Origin: a virus
Reading direction: 5' to 3' (one strand)
Length of the DNA: 64,000 bases
Virus record (IMG/VR): IMGVR_UViG_3300030098_006570
Span: 84,085 to 148,084 of that record
The first letter of the stretch is position 1; every line of letters starts with the position of its first letter. The notes beneath the pieces were generated by a model. It did not search any database, had not been told where the DNA came from, and saw nothing but the letters and a program-made list of their open reading frames with translations. A program made the position numbers and the translations under genes. Of this stretch, positions 15,605 to 59,997 are shown piece by piece.

Positions 15605-15610
15605 CTTCTC

Positions 15611-17172: not shown

Positions 17173-17196
17173 AAGAATCTTATCTCCTTTTCTTTC

Positions 17197-18141
17197 TTAT
17201 AAATTTAGCGCTTCGTCGAAGCTAATATAAGGAACCACTTGATTTATCAAAGTGTATGTGTCATCGAAAACACTGTAAATTTCCATCTGATGCAGGTGTT
17301 GCAGATCTACCCATTTTTTAACGAACCCGAGCGACACATCACGCTGATCTTCTTGCTCTGCAGCGTGGGCGGCCGGACGCGAGGCTCCAAAATTAGAGGC
17401 CTCTAGAGTGTTGCGTAAAACCACATCTTCATCGATTTCCCAAAAACGGGCGCCCACAAAATCAAACCCCATTATCATCACCCGTCGCGCTTTCAAAAAC
17501 TGCGCTAAGGGAAAAATAGCGCTTGAGACCTTATTTTCTAGTCCCCATTTGCGCGCCATCGTATAGGGAGGAAGAAAAACCTGCTCTCCATCAAAGGCGG
17601 CCGTGCCGAAAACAATGGGGCCCTCCGTTTCAAAGCGATTTTCAAAATCCCCTACGCAATAGGTATCATCAGGAGTCGTCGTATTGAGCCCCATGGTCTG
17701 TTGATACTTGGTGGTAGTAGCTTTAAACACTGTCACTTTGATCCCGATATGTCTAACTTGATCCAAAAGCTCTAAATACTCGTCCCAACTACAGGTCCGA
17801 TGCTCATCATCTACTCGATCTGGAGCGGTAGGGGTGGTTCCCCCATACAAGCGATAATATGCATAATTGTCGGCTAAAAAGTGAGGAACCAAAATTTCTA
17901 TATTCATCAATCTTTCATACTGGGGGGCCGTCGAGGGCACCGTCAGTAAAAATCTAAGACCTTCGGCTGCAGAGTTAGGGTCCATCCACGCCCAGTAATC
18001 GGGGACCACATTATAAAATTTATATTCCAGTGGAAAGGTCCGCTGGAACGAAAGAATCTTGTCACCGCTGCGTCGCAGTTTTTCCAGCTCTTCTTTGTGG
18101 TAGGCAATAGACTCACCAGTTCCCAGGACCCATAATTTCAT
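17197..18141 (-). CDS. Putative Rossmann-fold glycan protein (DUF115/GT42-like)
   Basis: A 314-aa protein not assigned with confidence. It begins MKLWVLGTGESIAYHKEEL, and continues with a strand/helix pattern resembling the nucleotide-binding start of DUF115 (motility accessory factor) and GT42 sialyltransferase-like proteins. Members of those groups transfer nonulosonic acids to protein or lipid acceptors, which would fit this locus. A second glycine-rich strand region lies at about residues 215-235 (VMIMGFDFVGAR). The 3' neighbour on the coding strand is the methyltransferase gene after 24 nt; 86 nt of AT-rich sequence lies upstream. Confidence 0.5.
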   Translation of the reverse strand: MKLWVLGTGESIAYHKEELEKLRRSGDKILSFQRTFPLEYKFYNVVPDYWAWMDPNSAAEGLRFLLTVPSTAPQYERLMNIEILVPHFLADNYAYYRLYGGTTPTAPDRVDDEHRTCSWDEYLELLDQVRHIGIKVTVFKATTTKYQQTMGLNTTTPDDTYCVGDFENRFETEGPIVFGTAAFDGEQVFLPPYTMARKWGLENKVSSAIFPLAQFLKARRVMIMGFDFVGARFWEIDEDVVLRNTLEASNFGASRPAAHAAEQEDQRDVSLGFVKKWVDLQHLHQMEIYSVFDDTYTLINQVVPYISFDEALNL

Positions 18142-18227
18142 GGTTTGTGATCTCTTTGTATGTTCAAGTACATCTGCTTTATTCTACTCTATTCTGCGCG
18201 GGATTTAAATACGATTATAAAGAATTT

Positions 18228-19226
18228 TCACGGTTCCGGCGAATATAGAGGGAGATTGAGGATAGTGGAATGAACCTCTTCTAAAAGGGGTAAACAGTGT
18301 TTCTCTACTGAAGACCAATAAGCGGTAGTGTGAAGCATGGGATAGTGGCGCGCTACTCCGATTCTCTCTGTCAAGGCCTCTGCATTATCCACCAAAGTGG
18401 TTCCCAAATAATAAGAAGAATGGGAATCTTGGGGGAGTAATGTAAATTCTTCGCCCCACCTTTCATAGTTAGTTTTGCGCTCGGCTAATTGTGCTGCGTA
18501 ACGAGGCAACTGCGTAAGCGCTACTGTTGCGCTTAAGTTATTCATATAAAATTTAAACCCCTCCTGGGTGATGTCATAAGAGGACCCAGAGGTCACGCGC
18601 CCAAAATTGCGATAAGAGCGGAAATAATTTTCCGCCGCCGAATCGTTGGTGCCAATAAGGCCGCCGTCGGGACTACATATGGGCTTATAAGGATGAAAAG
18701 AGAAAAATACAAAATCAGATTTGATCGTAGGAGTCACGCAATGGGCGCTATCTACCACCACTACCTCATCTCCATAAGGTTCAAAATCTTCAATATTACT
18801 CACACCCCCATAAAGGACCGGCATGAGAACAACCGGCAGGGAGGGTTTCTGCAAAGAAACTGCAAGGCGCCTCTCTTTATAAGAAGTTGTCGAAAATTGG
18901 AGATCTTTATTCACATCCACAAATATGACCCGATGGCCATTTTGCCGCGCGGCCCAGGCGGGAGATGTAAACCCGAGGGATGTGGTATAAACATCACACG
19001 GGCCTTTAAGTGCGAAAAGATAAGCGAAAATCATATAGGCTGCAGCGCTAGCGGAATTTGTGGCAATATTGTAAGATTTATGTGAAAAAGATGTAAACTG
19101 ATTTTCAAATTCTGTAACGTTGGGACCGAAACCGAGGGCGCCCTTTTGGAGAACCTCTATAATAGAGGGCAGATCTTCAGCAAGTATAGAAGAATCAAAG
19201 GCCTTCATTTTAGAAGATATCTTCAT
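18228..19226 (-). CDS. DegT/DnrJ/EryC1 family sugar aminotransferase
   Basis: A PLP-dependent aminotransferase-fold protein of 332 aa (start ATG at 19226, 9 nt after GGAG; an ATG two codons upstream is too close to that site). Evidence includes GFTSPAWAARQNGH, VVVVDSAHC with the PLP-binding Asp, and FSFHPYKPICSPDGG, where the Lys is the expected Schiff-base residue. These enzymes aminate keto sugars made by 4,6-dehydratases, and such a dehydratase-like gene is immediately upstream. At 332 aa it is slightly shorter than usual at the C-terminus. Confidence 0.85.
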   Translation of the reverse strand: MKISSKMKAFDSSILAEDLPSIIEVLQKGALGFGPNVTEFENQFTSFSHKSYNIATNSASAAAYMIFAYLFALKGPCDVYTTSLGFTSPAWAARQNGHRVIFVDVNKDLQFSTTSYKERRLAVSLQKPSLPVVLMPVLYGGVSNIEDFEPYGDEVVVVDSAHCVTPTIKSDFVFFSFHPYKPICSPDGGLIGTNDSAAENYFRSYRNFGRVTSGSSYDITQEGFKFYMNNLSATVALTQLPRYAAQLAERKTNYERWGEEFTLLPQDSHSSYYLGTTLVDNAEALTERIGVARHYPMLHTTAYWSSVEKHCLPLLEEVHSTILNLPLYSPEP

Positions 19227-19303
19227 AAACATGCTCCCCCGAGTTATTGGTCATTATATATTTACGAGCACCGGCGCCCTGGGACCAATATTCCTCTTGT
19301 GGA

Positions 19304-20278
19304 TTAGTTGGCATCGCCCAATCCCCGCTCAATCAGTCGCACTAATTCATCCACATTATCACTCATATGCAATGCGGAGTTGAACTCCGGGCCATCATAG
19401 GACGCCCAGGCTGTCCGAGCGGTGCGATTAGTATATTGAGGGCGTACGCCCAACAGATTGAGGCCGGGGACCGCGTAAGTAAACGGTAATTCGGTGGCGG
19501 CGAGCATATCTTCGTGAAGTTTCTCTCCAGGTCGCAGCCCGATCAATTCATAGTCGACAGGGGCGCCGTGCAACTTCTCCACGGCTTTAATAATTGTAGT
19601 CATATCATAAGAGCAGATCTGGGGAATAAAAACTTCGCCACCCTCGGCATTTTCGAGGGCGCCCAGGACCGTATCCACTGCATCTTCGAGGGTAAACAAA
19701 AAGCGGGACATCTCAAGCGACGTCACTTTGATATTCTTCCCCTCCCCAAGAAGACCGAGCCATAGAGGGATAAAAGATCCGCGGGACGCAATCACATTTC
19801 CATATCTCACTGATGCAAAGATGGTTCCTTCGGATTGATAGTCATAGTTGGTGTAGAGTCGTTCTGCGATAAACTTTGAGGACCCATAGACGTTGACCGG
19901 TTGGCAGGCCTTATCGGTGGAAATAAGAATACACTTTTTCACCATGTTCAAAAGAGCGGCCCGGGCCACATTTTCGGATCCAGCAATATTAGTTTTTACA
20001 CACTCATCCGGGTAGAATTCCATATCATCAATACGTTTGAGAGCGGCGGTGTGGATAACATAGTCGGGCTTGAAGCGCTTCATTGTAACATTGAGTTTAT
20101 CGAAATCTCGTACGTCCCCAATGACGCGTATAACCTCAGGTAATGGCCCAAAGGAAAGGGCTTGTTTGCCTTCGTCACGGCTAAACACCACTATCTTATT
20201 CAAAGGATCTTTGAGTAGGCGTTTGATGAGGGCTTTTCCAAGCGATCCCGTGCCGCCCGTAATCAAGTATGTTGTCAC
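19304..20278 (-). CDS. NAD-dependent sugar-nucleotide dehydratase/epimerase (PseB/FlaA1-like)
   Basis: A 324-aa extended short-chain dehydrogenase. The N-terminal LITGGTGSLGKALIKRLL binds NAD(P), HTAALKRIDDMEFYP and STDKACQPVNVYGSSK (YxxxK) form the active-site region, and GLRPGEKLHEDML is typical of the PseB/FlaA1/CapD polysaccharide biosynthesis group. It most likely makes a 4-keto-6-deoxy UDP-sugar from UDP-GlcNAc, the first step toward pseudaminic- or legionaminic-type acids, feeding the aminotransferase. It overlaps the glycosyltransferase gene by 4 nt. Confidence 0.85.
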   Translation of the reverse strand: MTTYLITGGTGSLGKALIKRLLKDPLNKIVVFSRDEGKQALSFGPLPEVIRVIGDVRDFDKLNVTMKRFKPDYVIHTAALKRIDDMEFYPDECVKTNIAGSENVARAALLNMVKKCILISTDKACQPVNVYGSSKFIAERLYTNYDYQSEGTIFASVRYGNVIASRGSFIPLWLGLLGEGKNIKVTSLEMSRFLFTLEDAVDTVLGALENAEGGEVFIPQICSYDMTTIIKAVEKLHGAPVDYELIGLRPGEKLHEDMLAATELPFTYAVPGLNLLGVRPQYTNRTARTAWASYDGPEFNSALHMSDNVDELVRLIERGLGDAN

Positions 20279-22314
20279 AGTTCCACCCGTTCTATCTTAT
20301 CGTCAGCCGGATTCAGCCGGGAGATAATCTTTAGTTCACACTCATTTTGGCGAAGCCAATCGTGCCAGTCACCCACTACACTCAAAGTAATTCCCTCCTC
20401 ATGAGGAAGCGTTTTGGCCGCCGTCTCGTTGGCGGCGACTTCATTGGAGTGGATAAATTCTTCCTTCTTGTAAGTACTGCCTTCTTTATCATAAAAGTGT
20501 TGGTGAGCAGCGCCTTCGGGGAGCAATTTATTGTCCCATCCAATAGTGATGACCTCGCTCACCCCCAGATGCTGAAGGAGATAGAAGACAGCCTCGTACA
20601 TGATGCCGGGCCCATAAGGACGGAGCATTCCTTGTTTGTCCAGGGTCCACTCATCAAAATTCTTCTTGGCCGCTACGGAGTTATCAAAATTTCTCTCCTG
20701 AATAAAGAACTTCAAATCACACTCTCCCAACTTGAAAGGAGTAGTGGACGCTTCCAAAACGACTGGGCGGCGCGCAGTGTAGTCATACTTCTTATAGTTA
20801 GCGCAGTTATAAACATGGAAATCCGTGAACGATGCAAACAGATCATAAGCCTGTTTGATGGCAATCGTGAGATTATTTTCCAGCAGCCCCTTTACGGCAT
20901 CCTCATCGTGTTCTGTTAACGTGGGTCCGCAAGAGAGCACATAACATTTCTCTCCCTTGAAGAGGTCCTTCAGGAGGGCCAGCTTTTCGGACTGCAGACC
21001 GAACTGGGCGACGGCCGTTGTTGCAGCTGCAGCACGATCTTTGGGGTTTTCTATCTGCAGTAGATCTTCGCGTGCTTTCCCAATACTGTCTTTGGTGCCC
21101 TCCAGGGGTACCCCTAAGCTCTCAACAAACTGTGCATACATATTTTCCGGAGTGAAGTTCTCAAGGATATGCTTTTGAAGAGCGAGAGCCTCTTGCTTAT
21201 AGTGCTGCTGCTTGGTAATTGCCTCCTTGAGGGCGCGCTTGTACGAGTTTTCCTTGGCATAAGCCCACATAGAATCCTTTTGGAGGACCCCATCCCAGAC
21301 GGCCGCCTTCTGAATCGGCTTCACATTATAATCTACCTTGATGATACGAGGAAAGTTTTTACCCTTCTTGTTGGGACGACAAATGTAATCCATCTGCCCG
21401 CTCCACGCCATCGTGATAAGCGGAAGACCATTATATGCTGCCTCAAACATAGGGAGGCCATACCCTTCCCCGTGAGCGATATTAATCAAGGCGCGCATGG
21501 ACGGGTGCTGATAGAGCCACGTAAGGTTCTCCATACTAATCTCTCCATGGACCATGTAAATCTTGCATTTGCGGTCCGGGATGGCCTGCAGGATTCGCTC
21601 AATTGTCCACCCTGTGTGGTAGCGATCTCGAATACTGTCGCATGCGATGCTTGTCTTGACCACAAGTCCCGCTGTCTCATCATCTTTGAAAGTTTCCGCA
21701 AACCACTTAATGGTGTTTTCCATATTCTTCCGGGGGCCCCACTGCGACACTACCAAGAAATTATTAGTAGTGGTAAACTCGATGTTTAGGGGGTCAGCTT
21801 CTCTTACCCGCGTGGGGTAATTCACAACTTCTACAGGGAGGTCAGGGCGCAGGCCCCAGTTCGGCACCTCTTCACCGGTTTCCTGAGCAGTGACAGCGTA
21901 CTTTGTATTCTGGAATACATCTCGTGAATGTGCAGAAATGGTAACCAAGCGCTGTACCGTCGTGTTGCATTTTTCAATCCACTGGGGGGCGACCTTGGTT
22001 GTTTCAATTCCAGCCGTATACCCAACGTTGTAGGGAGCAATGGGCTCAAACTCATTTGGAATAGTCACCTGTAGGGACATGTCAAAGGTCCCGCCGTTTT
22101 GAGTATAAACTTGAGTCTTTAGCATCAAGCTGTCCAACCACCGGCGCTCTTCGCTGTTTTCCATCATCATCCCGGTTTTCCCCCATGGGATATTGATAGC
22201 ATAAATATCAAATACGTCTTCTCGGGTGCGCAATGCTCGCAGCGCGAACCGGGCCTGTTCGCCATAGCCGGATCGGCTAAGAGCCGGCGCCTTCACTAAT
22301 ATTTTCTTTTTCAT
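20275..22314 (-). CDS. Two-domain glycosyltransferase (GT-B domain + DUF115-like domain)
   Basis: A 679-aa fusion. Residues about 1-415 form a GT-B glycosyltransferase, with VVSQWGPRKNMENTIKWF and the family-typical HGEGYGLPMFEAAYNGLPLI acceptor/donor motif. Residues about 450-679 begin CYVLSCGPTLTEHDEDAVKG and resemble the Rossmann-like DUF115/GT42-like region also seen at 17197-18141. Two transferase-like domains in one chain suggest sequential additions to one acceptor. It overlaps both neighbours by 1-4 nt. The acceptor, whether phage glycoprotein, DNA or host lipid, cannot be read from sequence. Confidence 0.75.
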   Translation of the reverse strand: MKKKILVKAPALSRSGYGEQARFALRALRTREDVFDIYAINIPWGKTGMMMENSEERRWLDSLMLKTQVYTQNGGTFDMSLQVTIPNEFEPIAPYNVGYTAGIETTKVAPQWIEKCNTTVQRLVTISAHSRDVFQNTKYAVTAQETGEEVPNWGLRPDLPVEVVNYPTRVREADPLNIEFTTTNNFLVVSQWGPRKNMENTIKWFAETFKDDETAGLVVKTSIACDSIRDRYHTGWTIERILQAIPDRKCKIYMVHGEISMENLTWLYQHPSMRALINIAHGEGYGLPMFEAAYNGLPLITMAWSGQMDYICRPNKKGKNFPRIIKVDYNVKPIQKAAVWDGVLQKDSMWAYAKENSYKRALKEAITKQQHYKQEALALQKHILENFTPENMYAQFVESLGVPLEGTKDSIGKAREDLLQIENPKDRAAAATTAVAQFGLQSEKLALLKDLFKGEKCYVLSCGPTLTEHDEDAVKGLLENNLTIAIKQAYDLFASFTDFHVYNCANYKKYDYTARRPVVLEASTTPFKLGECDLKFFIQERNFDNSVAAKKNFDEWTLDKQGMLRPYGPGIMYEAVFYLLQHLGVSEVITIGWDNKLLPEGAAHQHFYDKEGSTYKKEEFIHSNEVAANETAAKTLPHEEGITLSVVGDWHDWLRQNECELKIISRLNPADDKIERVEL

Positions 22315-23570
22315 CAGTACACCTTCACTTCATAGCTATTATAACCGGTCCGGTTCTCCCATGATCCCATGGTTTCATGGACATGCGTGAACAAATTGTC
22401 CCATCGCTCCACAAACGTTTCGAACCCAAACTGCTTTTCAGCCCAAGCACGACCGCGGAGGCCCCACTCGCGCCGCTGTTCTTCCGGCATCTTATACATA
22501 TCCGTCAGAGCTTGCACTACGTCCTCACCAGCCAGTCGGTCCTCGTATATAAAGGGAACTTCCTGACTGCCAATGATAGATTTGGACGATGGTTCTAATC
22601 CGATTCCGTACCAATTATCCTCTCCATCCTTTATCTGATCCTGAAGCCCTCCTGTCAGGGTTGCTATGATTGGGGTGCCACAGGAGAGAGACTCCAATGT
22701 AGATAACCCGAATCCTTCAGCGTCTGACACATTGATTGTGGCATCAGCAAGATTATACATCATTGCTAAATCAACCGCATTCACTTTTTCTTTAGACAAC
22801 AAAACCTGGCCGTTTGTCAGGTCAAGCTCTTTCATAATCGCTTCCAAATCCTGCCCATGAACGTCCTTTGGGTCTGTGTGCATTATAAGGGTGGCCTTGT
22901 CATGTAGATCGTTTTGGTCTAGAAAATCCTTAAACCAATAGATAAGAGATCCTGACTGTTTACGTCGTGCATTTCGATTATTCCATGCTACTACAAACTT
23001 GCCGGCTAATCCCTTCTCTTCCTTTATTGCCGCCACAGCCGCGGGGTCCAGCGGCTTGAAAATTTCCCCGTCCACCGCGTGGGGGATATAAGAACTCTCC
23101 ACACTAGGCGAGACAGTTTGTACAATATCATATGTAAGCTGTGAAATGCAAGCAATATGATCGTTAGAATCGTACCAGACGCGATTGAAGCTAGGATAGG
23201 GATAATTATCCCACACATGATAGTAAACCATGGGAACATGCGTTCTGATTTCGTTCTCAATATCCCACAGCCATGTATAAAATCTGGGATCGGTCATAAA
23301 CCAGAGAATATCCGGCTTTTGCTGGTGAATCATCGCGCGAACCATGTCCGCGTTTCCGTACCCATCTACAGGCCAAATGATCCAGTCTTGTCCCCACTCA
23401 GGCGTATGCTGAGGGTCGTGACGGGGGTGCTTGATGGCACCGCCGAAGCTGACAAATTGATATTTTCCTGTCTTGAGCATCCCTTCGATAATGTATTTTG
23501 TTTGTGTGCCCACACCGGAAGGGGAAAGCGGGTGGTCACTGATCGTAAAGATCTTAATCTTGTCTGACAT
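22314..23570 (-). CDS. GT4-type glycosyltransferase
   Basis: A 418-aa protein starting MSDKIKIFTISDH at 23570 (AGGAGACAGA site); an in-frame upstream ATG falls inside the nuclease gene. It has the GT-B layout: an N-terminal Gly-rich loop (SPSGVGTQTKYI) and the C-terminal nucleotide-sugar motif SDAEGFGLSTLESLSCGTPI with the E-x7-E pattern of GT4 retaining enzymes. It heads the glycan locus, 8 nt after the PD-(D/E)XK gene. Its stop overlaps the next gene start by one base. Confidence 0.85.
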   Translation of the reverse strand: MSDKIKIFTISDHPLSPSGVGTQTKYIIEGMLKTGKYQFVSFGGAIKHPRHDPQHTPEWGQDWIIWPVDGYGNADMVRAMIHQQKPDILWFMTDPRFYTWLWDIENEIRTHVPMVYYHVWDNYPYPSFNRVWYDSNDHIACISQLTYDIVQTVSPSVESSYIPHAVDGEIFKPLDPAAVAAIKEEKGLAGKFVVAWNNRNARRKQSGSLIYWFKDFLDQNDLHDKATLIMHTDPKDVHGQDLEAIMKELDLTNGQVLLSKEKVNAVDLAMMYNLADATINVSDAEGFGLSTLESLSCGTPIIATLTGGLQDQIKDGEDNWYGIGLEPSSKSIIGSQEVPFIYEDRLAGEDVVQALTDMYKMPEEQRREWGLRGRAWAEKQFGFETFVERWDNLFTHVHETMGSWENRTGYNSYEVKVY

Positions 23571-23578
23571 TCTGTCTC

Positions 23579-24361
23579 CTAACGACAATGTTCGGTATTG
23601 AGGAGCTTGCATGGATACGGCTTATGGCAATGCAGCCGGTTTTTGATAGCAAACTTTTTGGTTATATTGTATATTGCTTGATATAGAAGTTTAAGCGCGT
23701 TTTCCGTTTTTTTGGGTCCGCTCGTCACTCTAAAAATCTCCACACGATCTTTTTTAGCCGTGCGCTTGAGCAGTGCAAAGTGGGTCTCAACGCTTTTAGG
23801 ATCTATACCGTGCTTTTGGCAAAAAAAGTGCTTGTATAGTGTAAGCTGGTAAGTGACCATCTTTTCAGCCTTCTTGCGGGAATCCCATCCCCAAGAGCAG
23901 GTTTTCCAGTCAAAAAGGTGGTAAGTGTCCCCTACCTTAACGACTGCATCCACAAAACCTTTAAAATTTATATTGAAATTCTCAATAGGAACGTAAAGCA
24001 TTTCCTCCGAAGAAAAAACCTCGTAATCGCCAAAATACTCTTTCAGTGCAGATTCAACCTGGGCTAGTATCTGAGGGCCCGCTTGACGCATCTGCTTTAC
24101 ATTGTTGGCGTTTACATCAATGTTCTTTTCAAACAATTTTTGTAGCTGCTTATCAAAGCCAATCTGGAATATCTCTGTTTCATCAATATCTTCTTTGAGA
24201 AGCTTCTTTTCACAGACATCATGGATGGCAGTCCCAAAAGCGGTGTATTCGTTGCCTTCAAATGGAGCAACTCTTTCCACCCAAGCCTTCTTATGGTAAT
24301 GGGGACAATGCGCCCAATCTTTTAGTTCTGAATAAGATATGTGTTCACGCGGTTGCATCAT
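23579..24361 (-). CDS. PD-(D/E)XK exonuclease, Cas4/RecB-like
   Basis: A 260-aa nuclease. Core residues are visible: H47 (AIHD), D138 (FKGFVDAV), D151-x-K153 (LFDWKTC) and Q172-Y176 (YQLTLY), the RecB/Cas4 motif series. A Cys at residue 19 together with a C-terminal Cys group (LHCHKPYPCKLLNTEHC) could bind a 4Fe-4S cluster, as in Cas4 and AddB. In T4-like phages such enzymes act in recombination and replication. It overlaps the metallopeptidase gene by 17 nt. No CRISPR array or cas1 is nearby, so a phage DNA-metabolism role is more likely. Confidence 0.82.
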   Translation of the reverse strand: MMQPREHISYSELKDWAHCPHYHKKAWVERVAPFEGNEYTAFGTAIHDVCEKKLLKEDIDETEIFQIGFDKQLQKLFEKNIDVNANNVKQMRQAGPQILAQVESALKEYFGDYEVFSSEEMLYVPIENFNINFKGFVDAVVKVGDTYHLFDWKTCSWGWDSRKKAEKMVTYQLTLYKHFFCQKHGIDPKSVETHFALLKRTAKKDRVEIFRVTSGPKKTENALKLLYQAIYNITKKFAIKNRLHCHKPYPCKLLNTEHCR

Positions 24362-31392: not shown

Positions 31393-31475
31393 TGGTGGAG
31401 GTGCACGGAGTCGAACCGTGGTCCTGAGAATGCCATTGCAGGATTTAATCTCAGTCGAATTCCCAAACCACCCCC
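31393..31475 (-). ncRNA. 83-nt tmRNA-like RNA without a tag reading frame
   Basis: The 5' end (GGGGGTG, then TTGGGAATTCGAC) and 3' end (GGAC, T-arm CACGG-TTCGACT-CCGTG, then CACCTCC-A-CCA) match the tRNA-like domain of bacterial tmRNA (ssrA). The acceptor stem pairs over 7 bp with a G3-U70 wobble, the alanine identity element, and discriminator A73. Where tmRNA carries its mRNA-like region and pseudoknots, only a 6-bp stem (CTGAGA/TCTCAG) with a 19-nt loop remains. A normal anticodon stem and D-stem cannot be drawn, which argues against an ordinary tRNA. It lies alone in a 173-nt gap between genes on the same strand. Confidence 0.7.
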
Positions 31476-44959: not shown

Positions 44960-46198
44960 ATGAGCGTATTCCGCAAACACAAATCAATTGTCGACCGAGC
45001 CGCCAGTGACCGAATTCGTCATAAAAAGAAAATTGAAAAGGCAATCAAAGATTCTATCAAAGACGTTATTGCTGAAGAATCTATCATTGGCCAAAATGGC
45101 AAGAAAAAGATCCGAATTCCGGTCCGGGGCATCAAAGAATATCGCTTTATCTACGGAAATAACGAAAATAACAAAACTGTAGGCTCCGGAGGGCAGCATG
45201 GACTGAAAAGAGGTCAAAAAATCGGTCAAAAACGGGCTGACAAGGCCAAAGGCCAAGGAACGGGTAAGGCCAGTAACGAAAAAGGTGACCAATACTATGA
45301 TGTAGAAGTTACATTGGAAGAATTGGCTGAATATTTGTTCGCAGATCTAGAATTGCCGGATTTAGAGAAGAAACAATTCAAATTTATCTCTCACGAGACC
45401 ATCAAACGCCAAGGATACCGCTTTCAAGGCATCCGTCCGCGCCTCTCCAAGAAAGAAACGCTCAAAAGGAAGATTCGACGTCAGAAAATGGCGGAAAAAG
45501 CCGGAACCTATGACCCCGAGAGCGACGATCGCTTCCCCTTTCACAAGGATGACCTAAAATATCACCATATCAAACCCAAAGTTAAAGAAAACAGCTCTGC
45601 CGTCATCTTTTTCCTCATGGATGTATCGGGATCCATGTCTCAAGACCGAAAATACCTGGCGAGGAGCTTCTTCTTCCTCTTGTATCAGTTCTTGAACCAC
45701 CGATATGAGAATGTGGAGGTAGTTTTTATCTCTCACTCCACAAATGCGGAGCGTGTGACTGAAGAAGACTTCTTTAAAGTAGGTACATACGGTGGTACAA
45801 TTGTTTCATCTGCCTTGAACCGCCAAATCGAAATCGTAGAAAAAGAATTTCATCCAAATACATGGAATATTTACACTTTTTACTGCGGTGATGGAGAAAA
45901 TTGGTCTTCGGACAATGAAAAATGCATAGATTTGTTCAAGCAGATCAAAGATATAAGCCAACTAACAGCTTATTGCGAGATTAACGAGCACTATGGCAAC
46001 TTCGCCGAGGAGGGAAGCAACGAAGTTATGCCAGATGGGTACCCGTGGCCCTCATTTTCAGCTTGGAAGCAGGAAGAAAAGGACAATCTGTGGTCCAAAC
46101 TCACTCCCATCTGCGACAATAAGTTCAAAAAAGTGATGATTGGTCATACCGATCACATTTGGAAGGCCTTCAAATCTCTATTTGGTGGAGGAAAGTAA
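44960..46198 (+). CDS. yeaH: YeaH/YhbH family protein (DUF444, VWA-like)
   Basis: A 412-aa DUF444 protein, close to the 427 aa of E. coli YeaH. The N-terminus SVFRKHKSIVDRAASDR is basic and the middle is Gly/Lys-rich. The VWA-like domain carries the metal-ion site DVSGSM at residues 221-226, then THYGGT-like GTYGGTIVSSAL. YeaH acts with the kinase YeaG (PrkA) in stress and nitrogen-starvation responses in enteric bacteria, and its partner genes follow directly. Driven by the sigma70 promoter at 44879. The ribosome site is weak. Confidence 0.9.
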   Translation: MSVFRKHKSIVDRAASDRIRHKKKIEKAIKDSIKDVIAEESIIGQNGKKKIRIPVRGIKEYRFIYGNNENNKTVGSGGQHGLKRGQKIGQKRADKAKGQGTGKASNEKGDQYYDVEVTLEELAEYLFADLELPDLEKKQFKFISHETIKRQGYRFQGIRPRLSKKETLKRKIRRQKMAEKAGTYDPESDDRFPFHKDDLKYHHIKPKVKENSSAVIFFLMDVSGSMSQDRKYLARSFFFLLYQFLNHRYENVEVVFISHSTNAERVTEEDFFKVGTYGGTIVSSALNRQIEIVEKEFHPNTWNIYTFYCGDGENWSSDNEKCIDLFKQIKDISQLTAYCEINEHYGNFAEEGSNEVMPDGYPWPSFSAWKQEEKDNLWSKLTPICDNKFKKVMIGHTDHIWKAFKSLFGGGK

Positions 46199-46200
46199 CC

Positions 46201-47508
46201 ATGAGTGACTGGACTGAAGCAGATTTGCTTCATTGGGATGAAAAAATCATCAGGATAGCGGAGGATTTAGGACTCGATTGGCATCCTATTGATTATGAGA
46301 TCATCGATTACCAAGAAATGCTCGGCGCCATGGCTTACACCGGTCTACCAACGCATTATCGGCACTGGTCATACGGCAAAGAGTACGAGCGTACGCATAC
46401 GCTTTATAATATGGGCCAAACAGGGCTACCTTATGAGATGATTATCAACTCAAATCCGTCTATCGCATACTTGATGAGAGAAAATGCGCTCTACATTCAC
46501 CTCTTGACGATGGCTCACTGCGTTGGTCACTCGGATTTTTTCAAACAGAACCGTATGTTTGCCGAAACTAACCCGGAAAACATAATTGATAGCTTCAAGT
46601 CTTCTGCTAAATACGTACGACAATTGATCGAAGACCCGTCTATTGGTATTGATAAGGTGGAAAATATCCTAGACGCTGCACATTCTATCAAATATCAGGT
46701 ACCGCGTTTTCCTGGGATCAAATACAAAAGCCGCGATGAATTGATAGCGCTCGAAAAAAAGAAGATGATCGAGAATCCAAACTATTCTCCCAATCTCTCT
46801 AAAAATCCCCTGAGGCCAGAGTATAACCTTCTTCGCTTTATAGCAGAACACAGCAAAGGTCTGGAGGAATGGGAGAGGAACCTTATTCTTATTGTTGAGG
46901 AAAGTTCGAAATATTTCATCCCCCAGGCGCTCACGAAGGTGATGAATGAGGGGTGGGCCTGTACAATTCACTACAAGATTATTAATGAGCTAAACTTACC
47001 GGATAAGCTTCACCTGCCGTTTATCAAGCTTCACAATCAGGTAGTACGACCCCATCTCGGCCAACTTAACCCCTATCATTTAGGCTTCAAATTGTTTGAG
47101 AAAATTATCGAGAAGCAGGGTATGGAAGAGGCCATGATAGTACGAGAAGTTCACAACGATATTTCCTTCCTACGGTTCTATATGGACCAAGAGTTTATGG
47201 AGGAAATGAATTACTTTACATACTCCTTCAAAAAAACACAAAAAAATATTACAATAGATGATATCTCCGATGAAGATGGGTGGGAAAAAGTAAGAGACGA
47301 GTTAATTAGGAATATAGGACTTAACCGCGTACCAGTTATTTACGTGGACGAAGTAGAAAGAGACAACTCCTTGTGTTTGGTCCACGAACACGATGGCCGC
47401 GATCTCGACCTAGCGTATGCCCGCAAAGTATTCGAGCATATAAACACTTTATGGAAAGATAATGTCACTTTGACAACAATCGTGGAAAACGAAATATGGG
47501 AGTTTTAA
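46201..47508 (+). CDS. spoVR: SpoVR family protein (YcgB-like)
   Basis: A 435-aa SpoVR family protein from ATG 46201, 2 nt after the yeaH stop, with GGAGGAAAGTAACC before it. Family features include DWHPIDYEIIDYQEM, PTHYRHWSYGKEYE and ALTKVMNEGWACTIHYKI. B. subtilis SpoVR affects spore cortex; elsewhere the family co-occurs with PrkA and DUF444, as here. E. coli YcgB is about 510 aa, so this version is shorter, mostly at the ends. Its biochemical role is unknown in any organism I know of. Confidence 0.92.
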   Translation: MSDWTEADLLHWDEKIIRIAEDLGLDWHPIDYEIIDYQEMLGAMAYTGLPTHYRHWSYGKEYERTHTLYNMGQTGLPYEMIINSNPSIAYLMRENALYIHLLTMAHCVGHSDFFKQNRMFAETNPENIIDSFKSSAKYVRQLIEDPSIGIDKVENILDAAHSIKYQVPRFPGIKYKSRDELIALEKKKMIENPNYSPNLSKNPLRPEYNLLRFIAEHSKGLEEWERNLILIVEESSKYFIPQALTKVMNEGWACTIHYKIINELNLPDKLHLPFIKLHNQVVRPHLGQLNPYHLGFKLFEKIIEKQGMEEAMIVREVHNDISFLRFYMDQEFMEEMNYFTYSFKKTQKNITIDDISDEDGWEKVRDELIRNIGLNRVPVIYVDEVERDNSLCLVHEHDGRDLDLAYARKVFEHINTLWKDNVTLTTIVENEIWEF

Positions 47509-47511
47509 ATC

Positions 47512-49446
47512 ATGACCACAACAAATAAGTTTCTAGAAAGGATTCAGGAGCACCGAGATCTCAAGAAGGTAGAAAAATTTGAAGGATACCTTGGTGATTA
47601 CCTGGCGCTTCTGGAGGATAATAAAGAAATTGCAGCCCTAGCACACAGGCGCCTGTATGACCAGATCATGTCCGAAGGGCTAACTGTTCTTGATGAGACA
47701 GATCATCGGTGCAATAAGATCTTTGATGGAGAAGAGGTTAAAATCTATAACTATTTTTCTGACCATTTCTTTGGAATGGAGCGGCCCCTAGAGAAGGTCA
47801 TGCGCTTCTTGCGCTCGGCAGCTATGAAAGGCGAAGAGAGTCGTCAGGTACTTTTACTTCTTGGTCCGGTAGGCGCAGGAAAATCCGCTCTTGTCGAGCA
47901 CATCAAGAGCGCCCTAGAACAGTGCGCTCCGGTTTTTGCATTAGACGGTTGCCCCATCCGCGAGGAGCCGCTTCATCTTATCCCTCGCTCACTGCGCGCG
48001 GAGTTTGAAGAGGAGTACGGCATCAAGATTGAAGGAGACCTTTGTCCAGTATGCCGGCACAGACTTATCAATGAGTTTGAAGGAGACTTCACGAAGTTCC
48101 CAATTACGCAGTCTTCCTTCTCTGTGCGAGGCCGCAAGGGTGTTGGGGTTGTTCCTCCCATGGATCCGAACACCCAGGATACAAGCCTTCTCATTGGCTC
48201 TGAGGATATTTCAAAGCTAGACCTGTATCCGGAGGACGACCCAAGAGTTCTTTCGCTCAACGGAGCGTTCAACGTTGGTAACCGAGGCATTGTTGAGTTC
48301 GTTGAGGTTTTCAAGAACGAGATTGAGTTCCTTCATACCATGATTACCGCCACCCAGGAGAAGAATGTTCCTTCCCCCGGTAAGCAAGCGATGATTTATT
48401 TTGATGGTGTCATTCTCGCTCACTGCAATGAAGCCGAGTGGAACAAGTTCAAGGCTGAACATACTAACGAAGCCATCCTTGACCGTATCGTGCGTGTTAA
48501 TGTTCCTTACACGCTTGAGTTCGAGCAGGAGGTCAAGATTTACAAGAAGCTAATTGGGCGCTCCGACTTCGATTCTCATATCGCCCCTCATACCCTTGAG
48601 GTTGCTGCGATGTTCGCGGTCCTCTCCCGCCTGAAGCCTTCCAACAAAGTCGATGCATTGACCAAGATGAAGATCTACAACGGTCAGGAGATTGTCGAGA
48701 AGGGTCTTATCAAGAAAGTGGACATCAAGGATCTCCGCGAAGAGGTTGAAGATGAGGGTATGACTGGTATCTCCACTCGTTTCATCATGAAGGCCATTGA
48801 TGCCGCCCTAGCTGATTCGTCCAAGAATATGATCACCCCCATATCGATTCGAGATGCACTAGTCAAACAGGTCAAGGAACAGATTGTCAACGCTGATGAC
48901 AGAAAGCATTTCCTTCAGTTCCTGCAGAAGACGCTTCACGAAGAATATCTTTCCATTCTTGAGAAGGAAATCACCAAGGCTTTCGTTACTGCCTATGAAG
49001 AGCAGGCAGAGTCCTTGTTCAACAACTACCTCGATCACGCCGAGGCTTACGTCAATAACACAAAGGTCAAGGATCGAGTAACAAACGAAGAGTTCGAGGC
49101 CGACGAAAAGTTTATGGCTAGCATCGAAGAGCAGATCGGTATCAAGGGCTCTGCGAAGAATAACTTCCGGGCTGATATCACTTCCTACATGTTTGCTAAG
49201 TTGCGTCGCGGGGAGTCAATTGATTGGCGATCCTATGGTCCTCTTAGAGAGGCAATCGAAAACAAGCTTGTTTCGTCGGTACGCGATATTTCTCGTATTG
49301 TCACCAAGAGCAAGAGTCGAGATGTAAAGCAGCAGAAGAAATTCAATGCGATGGTTGAAACTCTAATCGAAAATTATGGTTACAATGAAGACTCCGCCGA
49401 AGAAGTCATCAAGTTTGCGAGTAATAATCTATGGCGTGATTCGTAA
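47512..49446 (+). CDS. prkA: PrkA-type serine protein kinase (YeaG)
   Basis: A 644-aa protein, the same length as E. coli YeaG. It has an N-terminal AAA+ domain with Walker A GPVGAGKS (118-125), a Cys-containing CPVCRHRL insert (about 177-184) typical of the family, and a C-terminal kinase-like region (ISTRFIMKAIDAAL; ISIRDALV). PrkA proteins are AAA+ kinases linked to stationary phase, starvation and sporulation control. It follows spoVR by 3 nt and ends the plus-strand operon at a terminator. Codon use looks like that of the neighbours, so the operon may be long resident. Confidence 0.93.
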   Translation: MTTTNKFLERIQEHRDLKKVEKFEGYLGDYLALLEDNKEIAALAHRRLYDQIMSEGLTVLDETDHRCNKIFDGEEVKIYNYFSDHFFGMERPLEKVMRFLRSAAMKGEESRQVLLLLGPVGAGKSALVEHIKSALEQCAPVFALDGCPIREEPLHLIPRSLRAEFEEEYGIKIEGDLCPVCRHRLINEFEGDFTKFPITQSSFSVRGRKGVGVVPPMDPNTQDTSLLIGSEDISKLDLYPEDDPRVLSLNGAFNVGNRGIVEFVEVFKNEIEFLHTMITATQEKNVPSPGKQAMIYFDGVILAHCNEAEWNKFKAEHTNEAILDRIVRVNVPYTLEFEQEVKIYKKLIGRSDFDSHIAPHTLEVAAMFAVLSRLKPSNKVDALTKMKIYNGQEIVEKGLIKKVDIKDLREEVEDEGMTGISTRFIMKAIDAALADSSKNMITPISIRDALVKQVKEQIVNADDRKHFLQFLQKTLHEEYLSILEKEITKAFVTAYEEQAESLFNNYLDHAEAYVNNTKVKDRVTNEEFEADEKFMASIEEQIGIKGSAKNNFRADITSYMFAKLRRGESIDWRSYGPLREAIENKLVSSVRDISRIVTKSKSRDVKQQKKFNAMVETLIENYGYNEDSAEEVIKFASNNLWRDS

Positions 49447-54063: not shown

Positions 54064-54684
54064 TTACCGCGAAACTGCGCCTTCGCGCTTTGTGATCTCC
54101 GCGACCTTCAACATAGCCTTCTGGCGGAGGTTCTCAAAATCATCCGTATAGTATCGGCGGGCATTCTCCGGTGTCTTGATGGTGCCAAGTCTGAGAGCAA
54201 GGTCAAGCGTGCAATTCGGATGATCCACGAATCGGCGCAAAGTATAAGTCCGCGTTGCTTCCTCTTCGGGCAAATCGGCGTAGATTTCCTCAAGCAGTGC
54301 GCCTGGAGTCTTGCTGGGTCCATTGTTCGACGCCCAATAAGGTCGAGCGAGGAATGCTTGCTGCATTCGCCAGATGGAACGACTGTTGTTCTTGAAATAC
54401 TTGCGATAAGTATCAAAGTATTCCTGTTCGGTCAACTCGATGTTTCCATGTGCCAGCATAACTGACTTCAAAACGTAACCCCTGCAATTCCAGAGTTCGC
54501 GGGCTGCCTCCGGGGTTAGATTGGTGTTGGCGGCCAAATACTCCTTGCCGAGCTTGTACCAATGCTTTGCAATCGCCATCATCGTTTCGGCGTCAGTAAA
54601 GCGATTCTTTGCAAGTGCGACAACCTCGGAGTTGTACATGTTGCCAATGTTGTTCGCGTAGGGCGATCCATAAACTTGTGTCAT
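54064..54684 (-). CDS. Hypothetical protein
   Basis: A 206-aa largely helical protein starting MTQVYGSPYANN at 54684 (an earlier in-frame ATG overlaps the upstream gene). Repeating helix pairs such as AKHWYKLGKEYLA and LRRFVDHPNCTLDLALRLGT suggest a helical-repeat fold. No family recognised. It is the last gene of the unit from the promoter at 55650. Confidence 0.55.
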   Translation of the reverse strand: MTQVYGSPYANNIGNMYNSEVVALAKNRFTDAETMMAIAKHWYKLGKEYLAANTNLTPEAARELWNCRGYVLKSVMLAHGNIELTEQEYFDTYRKYFKNNSRSIWRMQQAFLARPYWASNNGPSKTPGALLEEIYADLPEEEATRTYTLRRFVDHPNCTLDLALRLGTIKTPENARRYYTDDFENLRQKAMLKVAEITKREGAVSR

Positions 54685-54685
54685 C

Positions 54686-54958
54686 TTAAAATTCCAATCC
54701 GTTGAAGTCAAAAGGGTCTACGTCCGCAGAATTACGGGGGTTGTCGGGCTCACCTTCGCCCACTGCATCGGCAATCGAATTACGGAACTGCTGCTGTGCG
54801 TCAAACAACTTCTGCCAGCACCATTCGGCTGAACCTGCTTCGGTGAGGTCAGCATCATTACGACTATCCGCCCACTCAAGCCGCTTTGCGTCCCCGTAAT
54901 TGTCCAAAGCCACCAGAATCGTGGTGACTTCATCATCAGTTAGTTCAAATTTGATCAT
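54686..54958 (-). CDS. Hypothetical small acidic protein
   Basis: A 90-aa protein: N-terminal helices with FELTDDEVTTILVALDNYGD, a central WCWQKLFDAQQQFRN and the acidic, disordered end GEGEPDNPRNSADVDPFDF. It overlaps the upstream gene by 4 nt. Family not recognised; acidic tails of this kind are common in phage proteins that bind host factors. Confidence 0.55.
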   Translation of the reverse strand: MIKFELTDDEVTTILVALDNYGDAKRLEWADSRNDADLTEAGSAEWCWQKLFDAQQQFRNSIADAVGEGEPDNPRNSADVDPFDFNGLEF

Positions 54959-55689: not shown

Positions 55690-56976
55690 TTACCTTTCGG
55701 TAGGAACGATAATCATTCGTTCGGGCTTCGGGTTGAAGTAGGGACGCTGGCCGTTGTACTCATCGGTAATCCAGAGACGTTGAACATTGCAGCGAACCGG
55801 CTTCGGTGCCTCCATATCGGTACAAATGATAAGGCCGTCGAATCCGCCCTTCTCATTCACGAACTTCGTGGGAGCGTTGAAGCAAGTTCCGCCGTGCATG
55901 ACACGTTCACGCTTGCGCTGCATTCCCTTCTTCCAAACATAATTCAAACTCTCCTCGACACGAGTATCGAAAGGAATCACCGTGAACTCTGCGATCTTAG
56001 CAAGCGAGTTCAACTCTGCAAAGAAGGATGCCAGCATAGCATCCGAAACCGAGCCCGACTGGTCGATTGCAATCGCAATCTTAGCAGTTCGGGAAGACTT
56101 CTTGCCAGGATGCTGGTAAGGATAACGCTTGTTGATCTTGCGAACCGTGCTGCGCTTGTTTGCCTTCTGGCTCTGCTTCACAAAGTAGCGAAGCACCTTG
56201 CGCCAGTCAACCTTGCTGGAGATACCGTCAATAATCTCCTTCCTGAGATTGCTCGGCACACTTCCCCATCCACGGGAAGAAGAGTTTGCCTCTTCAACGG
56301 CGTCCTTCACGAACTCCTTGACTCGCTCCTCCGCAATCTGCTTTGTCTGCTCATCAACAGCATCCCAACCGGAGTGATCATCGAAAGAGTCCATATCGTC
56401 CAGGGACTGCTGGCCTTGCCCTTGTCCCTCTCCACCTTCACCTTCTTGAGGCTCACCCTGACCTTGTTGATTCTCCGGTTGTTCCTTCTGCATCTTGCGA
56501 AGTTCCTTCAAGTAGTGCTCGGCAGTCTTGAAAGGCTCAAGGTGCTCAAATGGCCCCTTTCCAGGCATACAAGCCATTTCGGGAAGGTGCGGAAGATGCC
56601 CGTTGATTGACAGGTCCATCGCGATGTTGTGAATCTTGCGCTCGTTCGGTGCCATGTCGCGGAAGGACAAGAATCGGTTGCCAGTCACATGCTGAAACAC
56701 AATGTGATAGAACTCGTGCTTTAGGATGTCCTTCTTTGCTTCATCACTCAGGGGAGCGAAGAACTTAGGATTGTAGACCATCTGCAACTTGCCCTCTTCC
56801 GTCACCATCACACCGGCAGTTGGAATCGCGTTGCTTGCACGCTTATCCATCCGACGCGAAAGTGCCGCAAAGAAAGGCTCGTCCATAAGCAGACGATGAA
56901 TGTGAATGTTCAGGTCGAAAGCGGATACATCCACTTCCTCAGTTTCGACTGCTTCGCTTTTGGCTGGCTCGGTCAT
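55690..56976 (-). CDS. VWA/metallopeptidase-like protein (DUF2201 type)
   Basis: A 428-aa protein from ATG 56976; GGAGGAACGCTCA precedes it, and an in-frame ATG 15 nt earlier overlaps that site. The N-terminal domain has HEFYH at 87-91 (HExxH, DUF2201 N-terminal metallopeptidase-like). A Gln/Gly/Glu-rich linker covers about 165-190. The C-terminal VWA-like domain begins at about 300 with the metal site D305-Q-S307-G-S309. Such proteins act with MoxR-type AAA+ ATPases, and one is encoded next upstream (57071). Each has its own promoter. Cellular pairs act in metal-cofactor insertion or complex remodelling. Confidence 0.82.
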   Translation of the reverse strand: MTEPAKSEAVETEEVDVSAFDLNIHIHRLLMDEPFFAALSRRMDKRASNAIPTAGVMVTEEGKLQMVYNPKFFAPLSDEAKKDILKHEFYHIVFQHVTGNRFLSFRDMAPNERKIHNIAMDLSINGHLPHLPEMACMPGKGPFEHLEPFKTAEHYLKELRKMQKEQPENQQGQGEPQEGEGGEGQGQGQQSLDDMDSFDDHSGWDAVDEQTKQIAEERVKEFVKDAVEEANSSSRGWGSVPSNLRKEIIDGISSKVDWRKVLRYFVKQSQKANKRSTVRKINKRYPYQHPGKKSSRTAKIAIAIDQSGSVSDAMLASFFAELNSLAKIAEFTVIPFDTRVEESLNYVWKKGMQRKRERVMHGGTCFNAPTKFVNEKGGFDGLIICTDMEAPKPVRCNVQRLWITDEYNGQRPYFNPKPERMIIVPTER

Positions 56977-57001
56977 TGAGCGTTCCTCCATTGTTACCTA
57001 T

Positions 57002-57030
57002 AGTATACCAGAAAAAAGGCGACCTGTCAA
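57002..57030 (-). promoter_or_regulatory. Sigma70-type promoter of the VWA gene
   Basis: Minus strand TTGACA (57025-57030), 17 nt, TGG-TATACT (57002-57007). Confidence 0.85.
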
Positions 57031-57070
57031 GCAAGGAAAGAGTATCCCCACTTGACAGGCCAGTCAGTTT

Positions 57071-58132
57071 CTACACCTTGTCGCCAGTCAGAATCTCCAC
57101 AAGGTAGTTACCAACCTTGCGACCATCAGCCGCAGCCGTGGAGTGGAACTGAATCGCGTTGTCCTGATTCGCCTGACCGATAACGGTCCACAGCTTCATG
57201 GCGGGCTCGCTCGGCAGAGACATGAAGTATGCCGCGAGGTTCACGAGTTCACCCTCGTTCAGGGAGTTAGCGAATCGGTCACTCGCACCCATCTTGTCAA
57301 TGAGAGCGCAGTGCTGGTTCAGGTCAACGTCCGGGGTCATTCCCTTGTCGAGAATGTCGGAAATGGTGACAACCTTGCTGTAGTTCGCTACGAAGTCGTT
57401 GAAAGCAACCGCAGCCTCGAATCCGAGGTAAGCAGAAGCCAGCGCAAACACAGCCGGGTTGGACTGGCCCGCTTCGACCAGTCCCGCAGCGGTCACAGTG
57501 TCCGAGAATCGAGCCCACGAACGACGCGACGGGTAAACCTTGTTCGGCTCGGGGTCGTCGTTGTGCTCAAGGTGCTCGGTGTTGTTCCGAATGAAGTCCG
57601 TCACCAGAGCATCGCAGTTGTCCGCAGCCCACGCAATCCAGTCATCAATGGAAGGCTCCACATCGAACACCGTGTAGCGGTCGAGTTCAGCCGGGTCCAT
57701 TTCACCGACCTGATAGGAAGCAGCGCCCGCGTGGGTTCCACCATTCACCGCAGCGAAAATCAGGGTGTCAGGGTGAAGTGCATGACCGGCGAGCTTGCGA
57801 GAATCGCAAAGCTCAAAGATACCCTGGCGAACTTCCAGGGTCGCACGGTCAACCTCATCGAGGAAGAGGACGACGCCATTATCACAGGCAGTCGCGAACC
57901 AGTCTGGAGGACAAAAGGAAGTCACCCCTTCATCCACAGTCGGCAGACCCAAAAGGTCGCCTTCCGTCATCTGCGAAGCGCGGCGCTCCACCACCGGAAG
58001 ACCGAGGGATTCCGCGTACTGGTAAACCACGGAAGACTTACCGATGCCGTGCCGACCACGGAGCAGGACAGGGTGATTCGCACTTGTAACGTGCGGAAGG
58101 ACGAGGAGAAGATTCTTGAAGTCGATTGCCAT
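57071..58132 (-). CDS. MoxR-type AAA+ ATPase
   Basis: A 353-aa AAA+ protein. Walker A GRHGIGKSS (26-34), pore-loop/ligand region with MTEGDLLGLPTVD, Walker B VVLFLDEVDRA, sensor 1 IFAAVNGG, and a C-terminal helical lid. The MoxR/RavA-like layout and the adjacent VWA gene make a two-component chaperone-like module likely. The first 20 residues are MAIDFKNLLLVLPHVTSANH. Read from its own promoter at 58179. Confidence 0.88.
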   Translation of the reverse strand: MAIDFKNLLLVLPHVTSANHPVLLRGRHGIGKSSVVYQYAESLGLPVVERRASQMTEGDLLGLPTVDEGVTSFCPPDWFATACDNGVVLFLDEVDRATLEVRQGIFELCDSRKLAGHALHPDTLIFAAVNGGTHAGAASYQVGEMDPAELDRYTVFDVEPSIDDWIAWAADNCDALVTDFIRNNTEHLEHNDDPEPNKVYPSRRSWARFSDTVTAAGLVEAGQSNPAVFALASAYLGFEAAVAFNDFVANYSKVVTISDILDKGMTPDVDLNQHCALIDKMGASDRFANSLNEGELVNLAAYFMSLPSEPAMKLWTVIGQANQDNAIQFHSTAAADGRKVGNYLVEILTGDKV

Positions 58133-58178: not shown

Positions 58179-58207
58179 ATAGTACCACAGGGAGACGCTG
58201 CTGTCAA
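58179..58207 (-). promoter_or_regulatory. Sigma70-type promoter of the MoxR-like gene
   Basis: Minus strand TTGACA (58202-58207), 17 nt, TGG-TACTAT (58179-58184). Confidence 0.8.
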
Positions 58208-58231: not shown

Positions 58232-59098
58232 CTAACTATCATCGCGGGGAACTTCGGGATCTTTCATTTCCGAAAGTTCAATCTCGCCATTCACATACTG
58301 CCGGAGCTGTGTCCTTTGGAAGTCCGTGAAGGTACGGAAATTGTCGCTGGACTGATCATTCTTCGCGCCAAAATGCTCCTTCGTGGCCTTCTTCAGTGCC
58401 TTCACATCAAGGAAAGAACTGGTTTTCAGAGAACCACAAGCCGGGGAAACCACTTCCCAATTAGTGTTGTCTGCCCTCTCGTGGCGATCCATCTTCTCGG
58501 ATTCATAGTACCAACCCTTTCCAAACCTGGGAACGATACCCGGAATAGTTGGGAGGCATACAGGCACCGTCCGACGCGAAGCATACACAGTCTCTTGTTG
58601 GGCTCCAATGAATTCAAAATGAAAGAAGGGTGATGGACTGCCCCATTCGGGTGTATTCATGATGCCAGCATAATGAGTAAGTTCATGGCTGATATGAGGC
58701 ACCATATACATCCCAACCGGAGGCATGTAGCCGTCGTCGTTAGGATACTGATATGTTCCGTTACGGTAATAGCTCACCTCGTTGGCGCGCACCATTGCGC
58801 CCGGTCCCAGGCCAGTCTCTTTCATCCACTTTACCAACGCCTGACGCCACAGATTGAGGTCCATCTGGAATTGTGCCTTGTGCTTCTTAGCAGTTTCGCA
58901 CCCTGCGCGAGTGTGTCCCATTTCACCACAGTAGCTGCACCTTTTCGGCTTTGCTTTGCGGTCAAGAATTGCCTGCCACTGGCGACCATAATAACTGTTA
59001 GGGTCCTCTTCCCACTTCTTCTTCAGTTCGGGACAACTGGTTTTGTTGTGTCCTGATTGGTAACAATAACTGCATCGAACTGTTCCGGTCCAACTCAT
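58232..59098 (-). CDS. CCHC zinc-knuckle protein
   Basis: A 288-aa protein with two retroviral-type CCHC zinc knuckles at the N-terminus: CSYCYQSGHNKTSC (about residues 9-22) and CSYCGEMGHTRAGC (about 54-67). A helical region (75-95), an SH3-like stretch with PGAMVRANEVSYYRNG (about 98-130) and an unknown C-terminal half follow. CCHC knuckles bind single-stranded RNA or DNA and are common in eukaryotes and retroviruses but uncommon in bacteria. Monocistronic, from the promoter at 59145. Confidence 0.75.
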   Translation of the reverse strand: MSWTGTVRCSYCYQSGHNKTSCPELKKKWEEDPNSYYGRQWQAILDRKAKPKRCSYCGEMGHTRAGCETAKKHKAQFQMDLNLWRQALVKWMKETGLGPGAMVRANEVSYYRNGTYQYPNDDGYMPPVGMYMVPHISHELTHYAGIMNTPEWGSPSPFFHFEFIGAQQETVYASRRTVPVCLPTIPGIVPRFGKGWYYESEKMDRHERADNTNWEVVSPACGSLKTSSFLDVKALKKATKEHFGAKNDQSSDNFRTFTDFQRTQLRQYVNGEIELSEMKDPEVPRDDS

Positions 59099-59340: not shown

Positions 59341-59970
59341 TCACTTACGCTTCTTTGCCTTCTTTAGATGACGCTCTTCCGTCCAAATGGGCTCGGAAGA
59401 CCCGATTGGCAATACTTGTAGCGGCTTTGCGCCCTTTCCGTGGGACCTGACCATCTCAAATCCCCCATACTTCAAAATAATAACTGGCTTGTTTGCGAAT
59501 CGGCGGGTTCCGCTGGCGGCTCGGAAGCAAGCTGTTGAACCTACTACAAAACTAGGTTCGCTCAGGAAGTTGCGAATGACACCAGCAGCATACTTGTTTT
59601 CTACGATCTTGTTGTATTCCCCCATTGTGGGAGTGCCACCGCAACGAACACCCTTACCGCTCTCAGGGTCATATCTAAAATACTTACCAGTAATATTGCC
59701 GTAATAGCCGGTCCGGTTGTAATAGTGAAGGGCGATGCAAAACTTCTGTTCCTTTTCGTCGTCCCAATCTTTGGCCCAAGCTCCTCGGGCTTTGAGAGCT
59801 TCGTCCGACCATCGACCCTTGATTTGCTGTAGGACTCGTTCCTGATTCGCGGAAAGAGTCCTTCCACCGGCCAACTGCTTAGTGATAGACTCTAGAAACC
59901 CATAATCCCAGGAGTTTTCCTCCCCGGCAATAAGGATTTTGCCCATGAAGTTATTTACTTGCTCAAGCAT
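59341..59970 (-). CDS. Hypothetical protein
   Basis: A 209-aa protein from ATG 59970, which has GAAGGAGCCGCG before it; an ATG 18 nt upstream overlaps that site. The N-terminal 90 residues are helical; the middle (FCIALHYYNRTGYYGNITGK) and later part (AGVIRNFLSEPSFVVGSTAC) are mixed; the end is basic (ERHLKKAKKRK). No family recognised. Monocistronic from the promoter at 59998. Confidence 0.6.
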   Translation of the reverse strand: MLEQVNNFMGKILIAGEENSWDYGFLESITKQLAGGRTLSANQERVLQQIKGRWSDEALKARGAWAKDWDDEKEQKFCIALHYYNRTGYYGNITGKYFRYDPESGKGVRCGGTPTMGEYNKIVENKYAAGVIRNFLSEPSFVVGSTACFRAASGTRRFANKPVIILKYGGFEMVRSHGKGAKPLQVLPIGSSEPIWTEERHLKKAKKRK

Positions 59971-59997
59971 CGCGGCTCCTTCGCTCATCGTGTATAT

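Follow-up and report, generated by a model that had tools for sequence, protein, structure and literature searches.

The window analysed here is a stretch of 64,000 nucleotides that forms the terminal part (bases 84085-148084) of a 148,084-base IMG/VR virus record. Since this record encodes a T4-type major capsid protein (gp23), a T4-type portal and a T4-type large terminase, together with a ribonucleotide reductase and a DnaB-like helicase, it can be assigned to a T4-superfamily phage, and its source is a marine T4 relative. The closest capsid proteins of cultured phages are those of Microcystis phage Mel-JY01 and Flavobacterium phage immuto, with 35-44% identity over the aligned parts. On the minus strand of the window, more than 100 kb from gp23 on the contig, an AAA+ ATPase gene is followed by the gene of a zincin-VWA protein, as listed below:

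58179..58207, minus strand: sigma70-type promoter of the ATPase gene (TTGACA-17-TACTAT, at 58207), just upstream of the gene
57071..58132, minus strand: MoxR-type (CbbQ/NorQ/Midasin-like) AAA+ ATPase of 353 aa, assigned by Pfam, PHROG, profiles, Foldseek and motifs
57020..57062, minus strand: hairpin resembling an intrinsic terminator, located between the two genes (stem of 18 pairs, -28.6 kcal/mol, z -6.2)
57002..57030, minus strand: sigma70-type promoter of the zincin-VWA gene (TTGACA-17-TATACT), just upstream of the gene
55690..56991, minus strand: partner of 433 aa, zincin (DUF2201_N), linker and VWA (DUF2201), assigned by Pfam, PHROG, invariant residues and fold match

Two other features of the minus strand are recorded for completeness. 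A NeuB-family synthase, a DegT-type aminotransferase and glycosyltransferases make up a surface-sugar synthesis cluster (12161-23612). An element of only 83 nt (31393-31475) matches the Rfam tmRNA model with 54.6 bits, above the gathering score. It combines a tRNA-like acceptor, a T-arm and a CCA end with a 5' part resembling that of tmRNA, while the mRNA-like part is almost missing; ARAGORN makes no call there, no match was obtained when 401 bases were rescanned on their own, and record G002 carries an 86% identical copy.

The initial annotation had proposed a MoxR-type ATPase next to a DUF2201-like partner carrying an HExxH motif and a VWA metal site, and both assignments are borne out, with the two open reading frames lying where it had placed them. 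The ATPase matches Pfam AAA_5 (E 4e-9) and belongs to PHROG 1297, labelled ATPase; its NCBIfam matches are weak and all below cut-off. Profile search against solved structures retrieved Midasin (4e-32), CbbQ (2e-9), NorQ (3e-6) and CobS (5e-5). Foldseek ranks 1-16 of the single-chain model (pLDDT 79.9, pTM 0.64) are taken by NorQ, in several cases as part of a NorQ-NorD VWA complex, and by CbbQ2, with a high rmsd over the whole chain, so that these matches are taken as family resemblance alone. Strands 63-67 and 70-74 of the model are a plausible site for the helix-2 insert beta-hairpin, as read from the model itself rather than from a superposition on the NorQ insert. Among 43 ATPase sequences (mean column identity 64%), the Walker A (G29, G31, K32, S33) and Walker B (D92, E93) residues are invariant, as are R152 and R204, which by their position are candidates for the Arg finger and sensor-2, respectively. 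Comparison with eight distant pairs (N4, AR9, XC38, CBB, PA5oct, Phosso, MarsHill and a Pontibacillus plasmid; 18-28% identity) revealed only two kinds of motif change: G31 is replaced by A in a single sequence, and S33 by T in two others or fewer distinct ones. The sensor-1 asparagine is aligned in all three proteins of a small set and falls on a gap position in the larger alignment of distant pairs.

The partner combines, in one chain, an N-terminal PF13203 domain (DUF2201_N metallopeptidase; residues 31-290, E 2.5e-20, 73.7 bits for a cut-off of 23.2) and a C-terminal PF09967 domain (DUF2201 VWA-like; residues 305-417, E 9e-10, 39.2 bits for a cut-off of 26.4). The HExxH motif is H92-E93-F-Y-H96 (HEFYH), and the MIDAS is complete (D310-x-S312-x-S314, T369 and D392). 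These residues, together with H101, N122 and D126, are invariant in 44 zincin-VWA sequences having a mean column identity of 51%, and the same 11 zinc and MIDAS positions are kept in the eight distant pairs, with N122 to H in MarsHill as the sole change. From its conservation and position, D126 may be the third zinc ligand. Such strict keeping argues that both metal sites are in use, and suggests that the pair cuts or loads something important. In the single-chain model (pLDDT 76.7, pTM 0.58), residues 299-433 match VWA domains with Z about 10, in a fold comparison that is dominated by the VWA domain and barely probes the zincin part. About 27 residues separate the strand ending at 341 from T369 in this model of the partner on its own, a stretch that bears on the question of a NorD-type finger. 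A sequence search of the partner against solved structures gave no relevant match, NCBIfam gave no family, and neither protein of the pair matched the PADLOC anti-phage defence models at E 0.01. The partner falls in PHROG 1314, whose family label is 'HNH endonuclease', a label that many RefSeq phage records also give to its homologues, N4 gp25 (NC_008720) among them. Since no HNH family appears among the Pfam matches down to E 0.1, we reject this identity; the label is apparently a propagated misannotation.

A search for the pair in other phages, proposed together with the initial annotation, found the two genes together in about 45 distinct related contigs, nearly always adjacent and with the ATPase first; as these contigs were retrieved via the pair itself, such counts give no frequency in the phage group. 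An alternative sample of 80 contigs retrieved via the major capsid protein was too short to reach the pair region. When 33 records were scanned with both profiles, the zincin-VWA protein was found in all 33 and the ATPase in 32, the exception being a record that starts within the pair. Two relatives depart from adjacency: one (L038) has the reversed order with about 1.6 kb between the genes, and the other (G031) has them about 7 kb apart. For 40 contigs, the distance matrices of both proteins agree (Mantel p 0.0005, Spearman 0.58); common descent of the contigs accounts for part of the linkage and co-inheritance. Beyond this group, the genes are adjacent or one gene apart in N4, AR9, XC38, CBB, Phosso, MarsHill and the Pontibacillus plasmid, separated by four genes in PA5oct and far apart in Vibrio Va1-type phages; the pair also occurs in PBS1 and in Staphylococcus jumbo phages, among others. 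It is thus very widespread in phages, and the same machine is present in phages with very different virions. A scan of bacterial genomes gave only eight loci, mostly small marine MAG contigs with best segments of 46-56% identity, plausibly phage contigs binned with the MAGs. Examination of the conserved neighbours for a third component gave three recurrent families, none of them constant: a protein with two conserved CCHC zinc knuckles (58232-59098, minus strand), which 28 of 56 loci have close to the pair, and the products of 59341-59988 (30 loci) and 54064-54711 (25 loci).

The sequences surrounding the two genes bear on the timing of their expression. The pair region contains 13 promoter-like sites, as against 6.4 +/- 2.5 in shuffles. 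In 40 relatives, we scored sites with at least 10 of 12 matches and at most 150 bases upstream of a gene, with mononucleotide shuffles as control; these are related contigs rather than independent events, and gaps and sequences vary between their subclades. Such a site precedes the ATPase gene in 29 of the 40 (shuffled expectation 1.5) and the zincin-VWA gene in 22 (expectation 0.65). Early-type expression signals, in line with the early action supposed in the initial annotation, are present, the strong sigma70-type promoters of the ATPase gene pointing to early expression. On the other hand, the two separate sigma70 promoters of the initial annotation, though found as sequences before both window genes, are not a general feature: ten of the 40 relatives have a gap of at most 30 nt between the genes, and only one of these ten has a second promoter. 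In the window itself, the terminator-like hairpin and the second promoter suggest that the genes are probably transcribed separately, which would permit unequal amounts of motor and partner. The 3' arm of the hairpin contains the -35 box of the zincin-VWA promoter and its T-run lies within the promoter spacer; compensating changes preserve the stem in two close relatives (L003 and L004). More broadly, near-consensus promoters precede successive minus-strand genes between 54000 and 62000, with TTGACA, a 17-base spacer and often TGTGG or CTGG before the -10 box, and this part of the window looks like the phage early region. The T4 late-promoter motif TATAAATA showed no enrichment on the structural-gene strand (2 on the minus strand and 12 on the plus strand, for a shuffled mean of 2.8 per strand) and so offers no contrast between late and early genes. 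Outside the marine group, an annotated early promoter lies ahead of the AR9 pair g028/g029, and gp24/gp25 of N4 are middle genes (PMC4193335).

We favour, with a probability of roughly 0.55, the reading that the pair is a remodelling protease, driven by ATP and active from early in infection. The window and its relatives provide the basis for it: both domains, conserved active sites, near-constant linkage, joint inheritance and early-type promoters. Host sigma70 RNA polymerase would make both products from the start of infection, and they would form a single protein-remodelling machine. The ATPase probably assembles into a MoxR-type hexamer, which could dock the C-terminal VWA domain of the partner within its pore or above it. 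Through its MIDAS metal or the adjoining linker, this domain would then hold on to an acidic residue of the client, a protein complex. Rotation or pulling driven by ATP would strain this client and present it to the N-terminal zincin domain, a putative peptidase that would cut it. NorQ-NorD, whose NorQ is the best Foldseek match of the ATPase, may serve as a mechanical precedent: NorQD inserts iron, and its structures show the ring twisting its VWA partner (PMC13036017). The timing makes a host complex a somewhat more likely client than a virion precursor, and the pair may disarm such a complex, as had been supposed from the window alone.

The published proposal differs. In their 2021 jumbo-phage survey, Iyer et al. 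described exactly such a pair, in which the vWA cochaperone of a MoxR ATPase bears a metallopeptidase at its N-terminus, and proposed that in group 2.2 jumbo phages it serves virion assembly and processes structural proteins (PMC7824862). A chaperone-protease that folds or processes phage structural proteins is a possible but less likely explanation here as well. It has a precedent in p618 and p892 of ATV, which interact and are tied to tail development (PMC4124505), and in CBB the pair adjoins structural genes. Moreover, one ATPase peptide was detected in DC4 virions (PMC10638138), and the PA5oct ATPase record carries an ESI-MS/MS note, as do the structural-protein records of this phage; the ATPase was thus detected in the virions of one jumbo phage and probably of a second. 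These detections fit an assembly role and count against an early protease. Nevertheless, early expression sits badly with assembly, given the sigma70-type promoters upstream of the ATPase gene in the marine relatives, the early promoter of AR9 and the middle expression in N4. Indeed, of the 43 virion proteins of AR9, 41 belong to the late class and only g084 and g215 do not (PMC5312081), so that g028 and g029 are probably not part of the particle. The pair also spans unrelated virion types (T4-like, N4-like and PBS1-like).

Timing and virion detection could be reconciled, speculatively, if the machine were packaged for immediate action. We put forward only tentatively, as rather doubtful, the broader idea of a host-directed, ATP-powered early protease shared by several unrelated phage lineages (T4-like, N4-like, PBS1-like and other jumbo phages), some of which would also carry it in the virion to act at once.

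Less likely still is a metal-insertion chaperone of the NorQ-NorD kind, which would open a phage or host metalloenzyme while the zincin domain holds or hands over the metal with no cutting. The closest solved ATPases, which include NorQ, CbbQ and CobS, the iron insertion by NorQD and the ribonucleotide reductase of this phage are in line with such a function, and the two-subunit MoxR pair of phage 0305phi8-36 was termed a metalloprotein chaperonin by its authors (PMC2147016). However, an HExxH motif followed by an acidic residue further along the chain is a signature of the peptidase type, here strictly retained, and no metalloenzyme gene lies consistently beside the pair.

The initial annotation had also drawn attention to another AAA+/VWA module in the window, which does exist and consists of three genes identified by Pfam:

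44960-46198, plus strand: DUF444/YeaH
46159-47508, plus strand: SpoVR
47512-49446, plus strand: PrkA

PrkA is already known in Thermus phages, and PrkA and SpoVR are listed for Ralstonia phage RsoM2USA (PMC8504454). That both modules form one compound AAA+/VWA system is highly improbable: they lie close together, roughly 6-12 kb apart, in the compared records having both, including the window, but just 12 of the 33 records contain PrkA, the MoxR/VWA pair is found in six relatives of 185-191 kb that have none of YeaH, SpoVR and PrkA, and YeaH has only the generic VWA core in common with the DUF2201 VWA domain. Since the YeaH-SpoVR-PrkA block is all-or-none (whole in 12 of 18 records tested) and the pair is present without it, the two modules look independent. 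The significance that had been attached to their concentration is therefore not supported; YeaH-SpoVR-PrkA appears to be a separate accessory whose coexistence with the pair is a feature of subclades.

Since pairs of this kind were described in the jumbo-phage survey, among the core genes of N4-like phages and in 0305phi8-36, the window pair is not the first of its kind. The homologous CBB_216/217 of group 2.2 jumbo phages have the same metallopeptidase-vWA fusion and the same residues, whereas the window pair is only 21-25% identical to them and belongs to marine phages of the T4 superfamily, which reach about 190 kb; its early-type sigma70 promoters oppose the role published for group 2.2. 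AR9 and PBS1 also encode an adjacent pair, g029 being annotated as a zincin-like protease fused to vWA; the window pair shares 24-28% identity with that of AR9, a jumbo phage with its own RNA polymerases. ATV p618/p892, compared by published description, likewise associate a viral MoxR ATPase with a VWA partner but come from an archaeal virus and have no peptidase domain (PMC7824862), unlike the zincin-bearing partner of the window. The mechanics of a motor plus a VWA protein are likely common to the window pair, NorQ-NorD and CbbQ-CbbO, although no zincin domain is reported for NorD and the clients differ. Finally, the core genes of N4-like phages include gp24 and gp25, the latter named only vWFA (PMC4193335, PMC2784036), while its homologue in Sinorhizobium phage P_ort11 was earlier noted as a PF13203 metallopeptidase (PMC6992544). 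These N4 genes are adjacent and gp25 carries, like the window partner, the HExxH motif, the D126 equivalent and a full MIDAS; the window pair is 22-23% identical to them, and expression differs, the N4 genes being middle genes. With N4 growing in laboratory E. coli, the role of the pair is directly testable in this phage.
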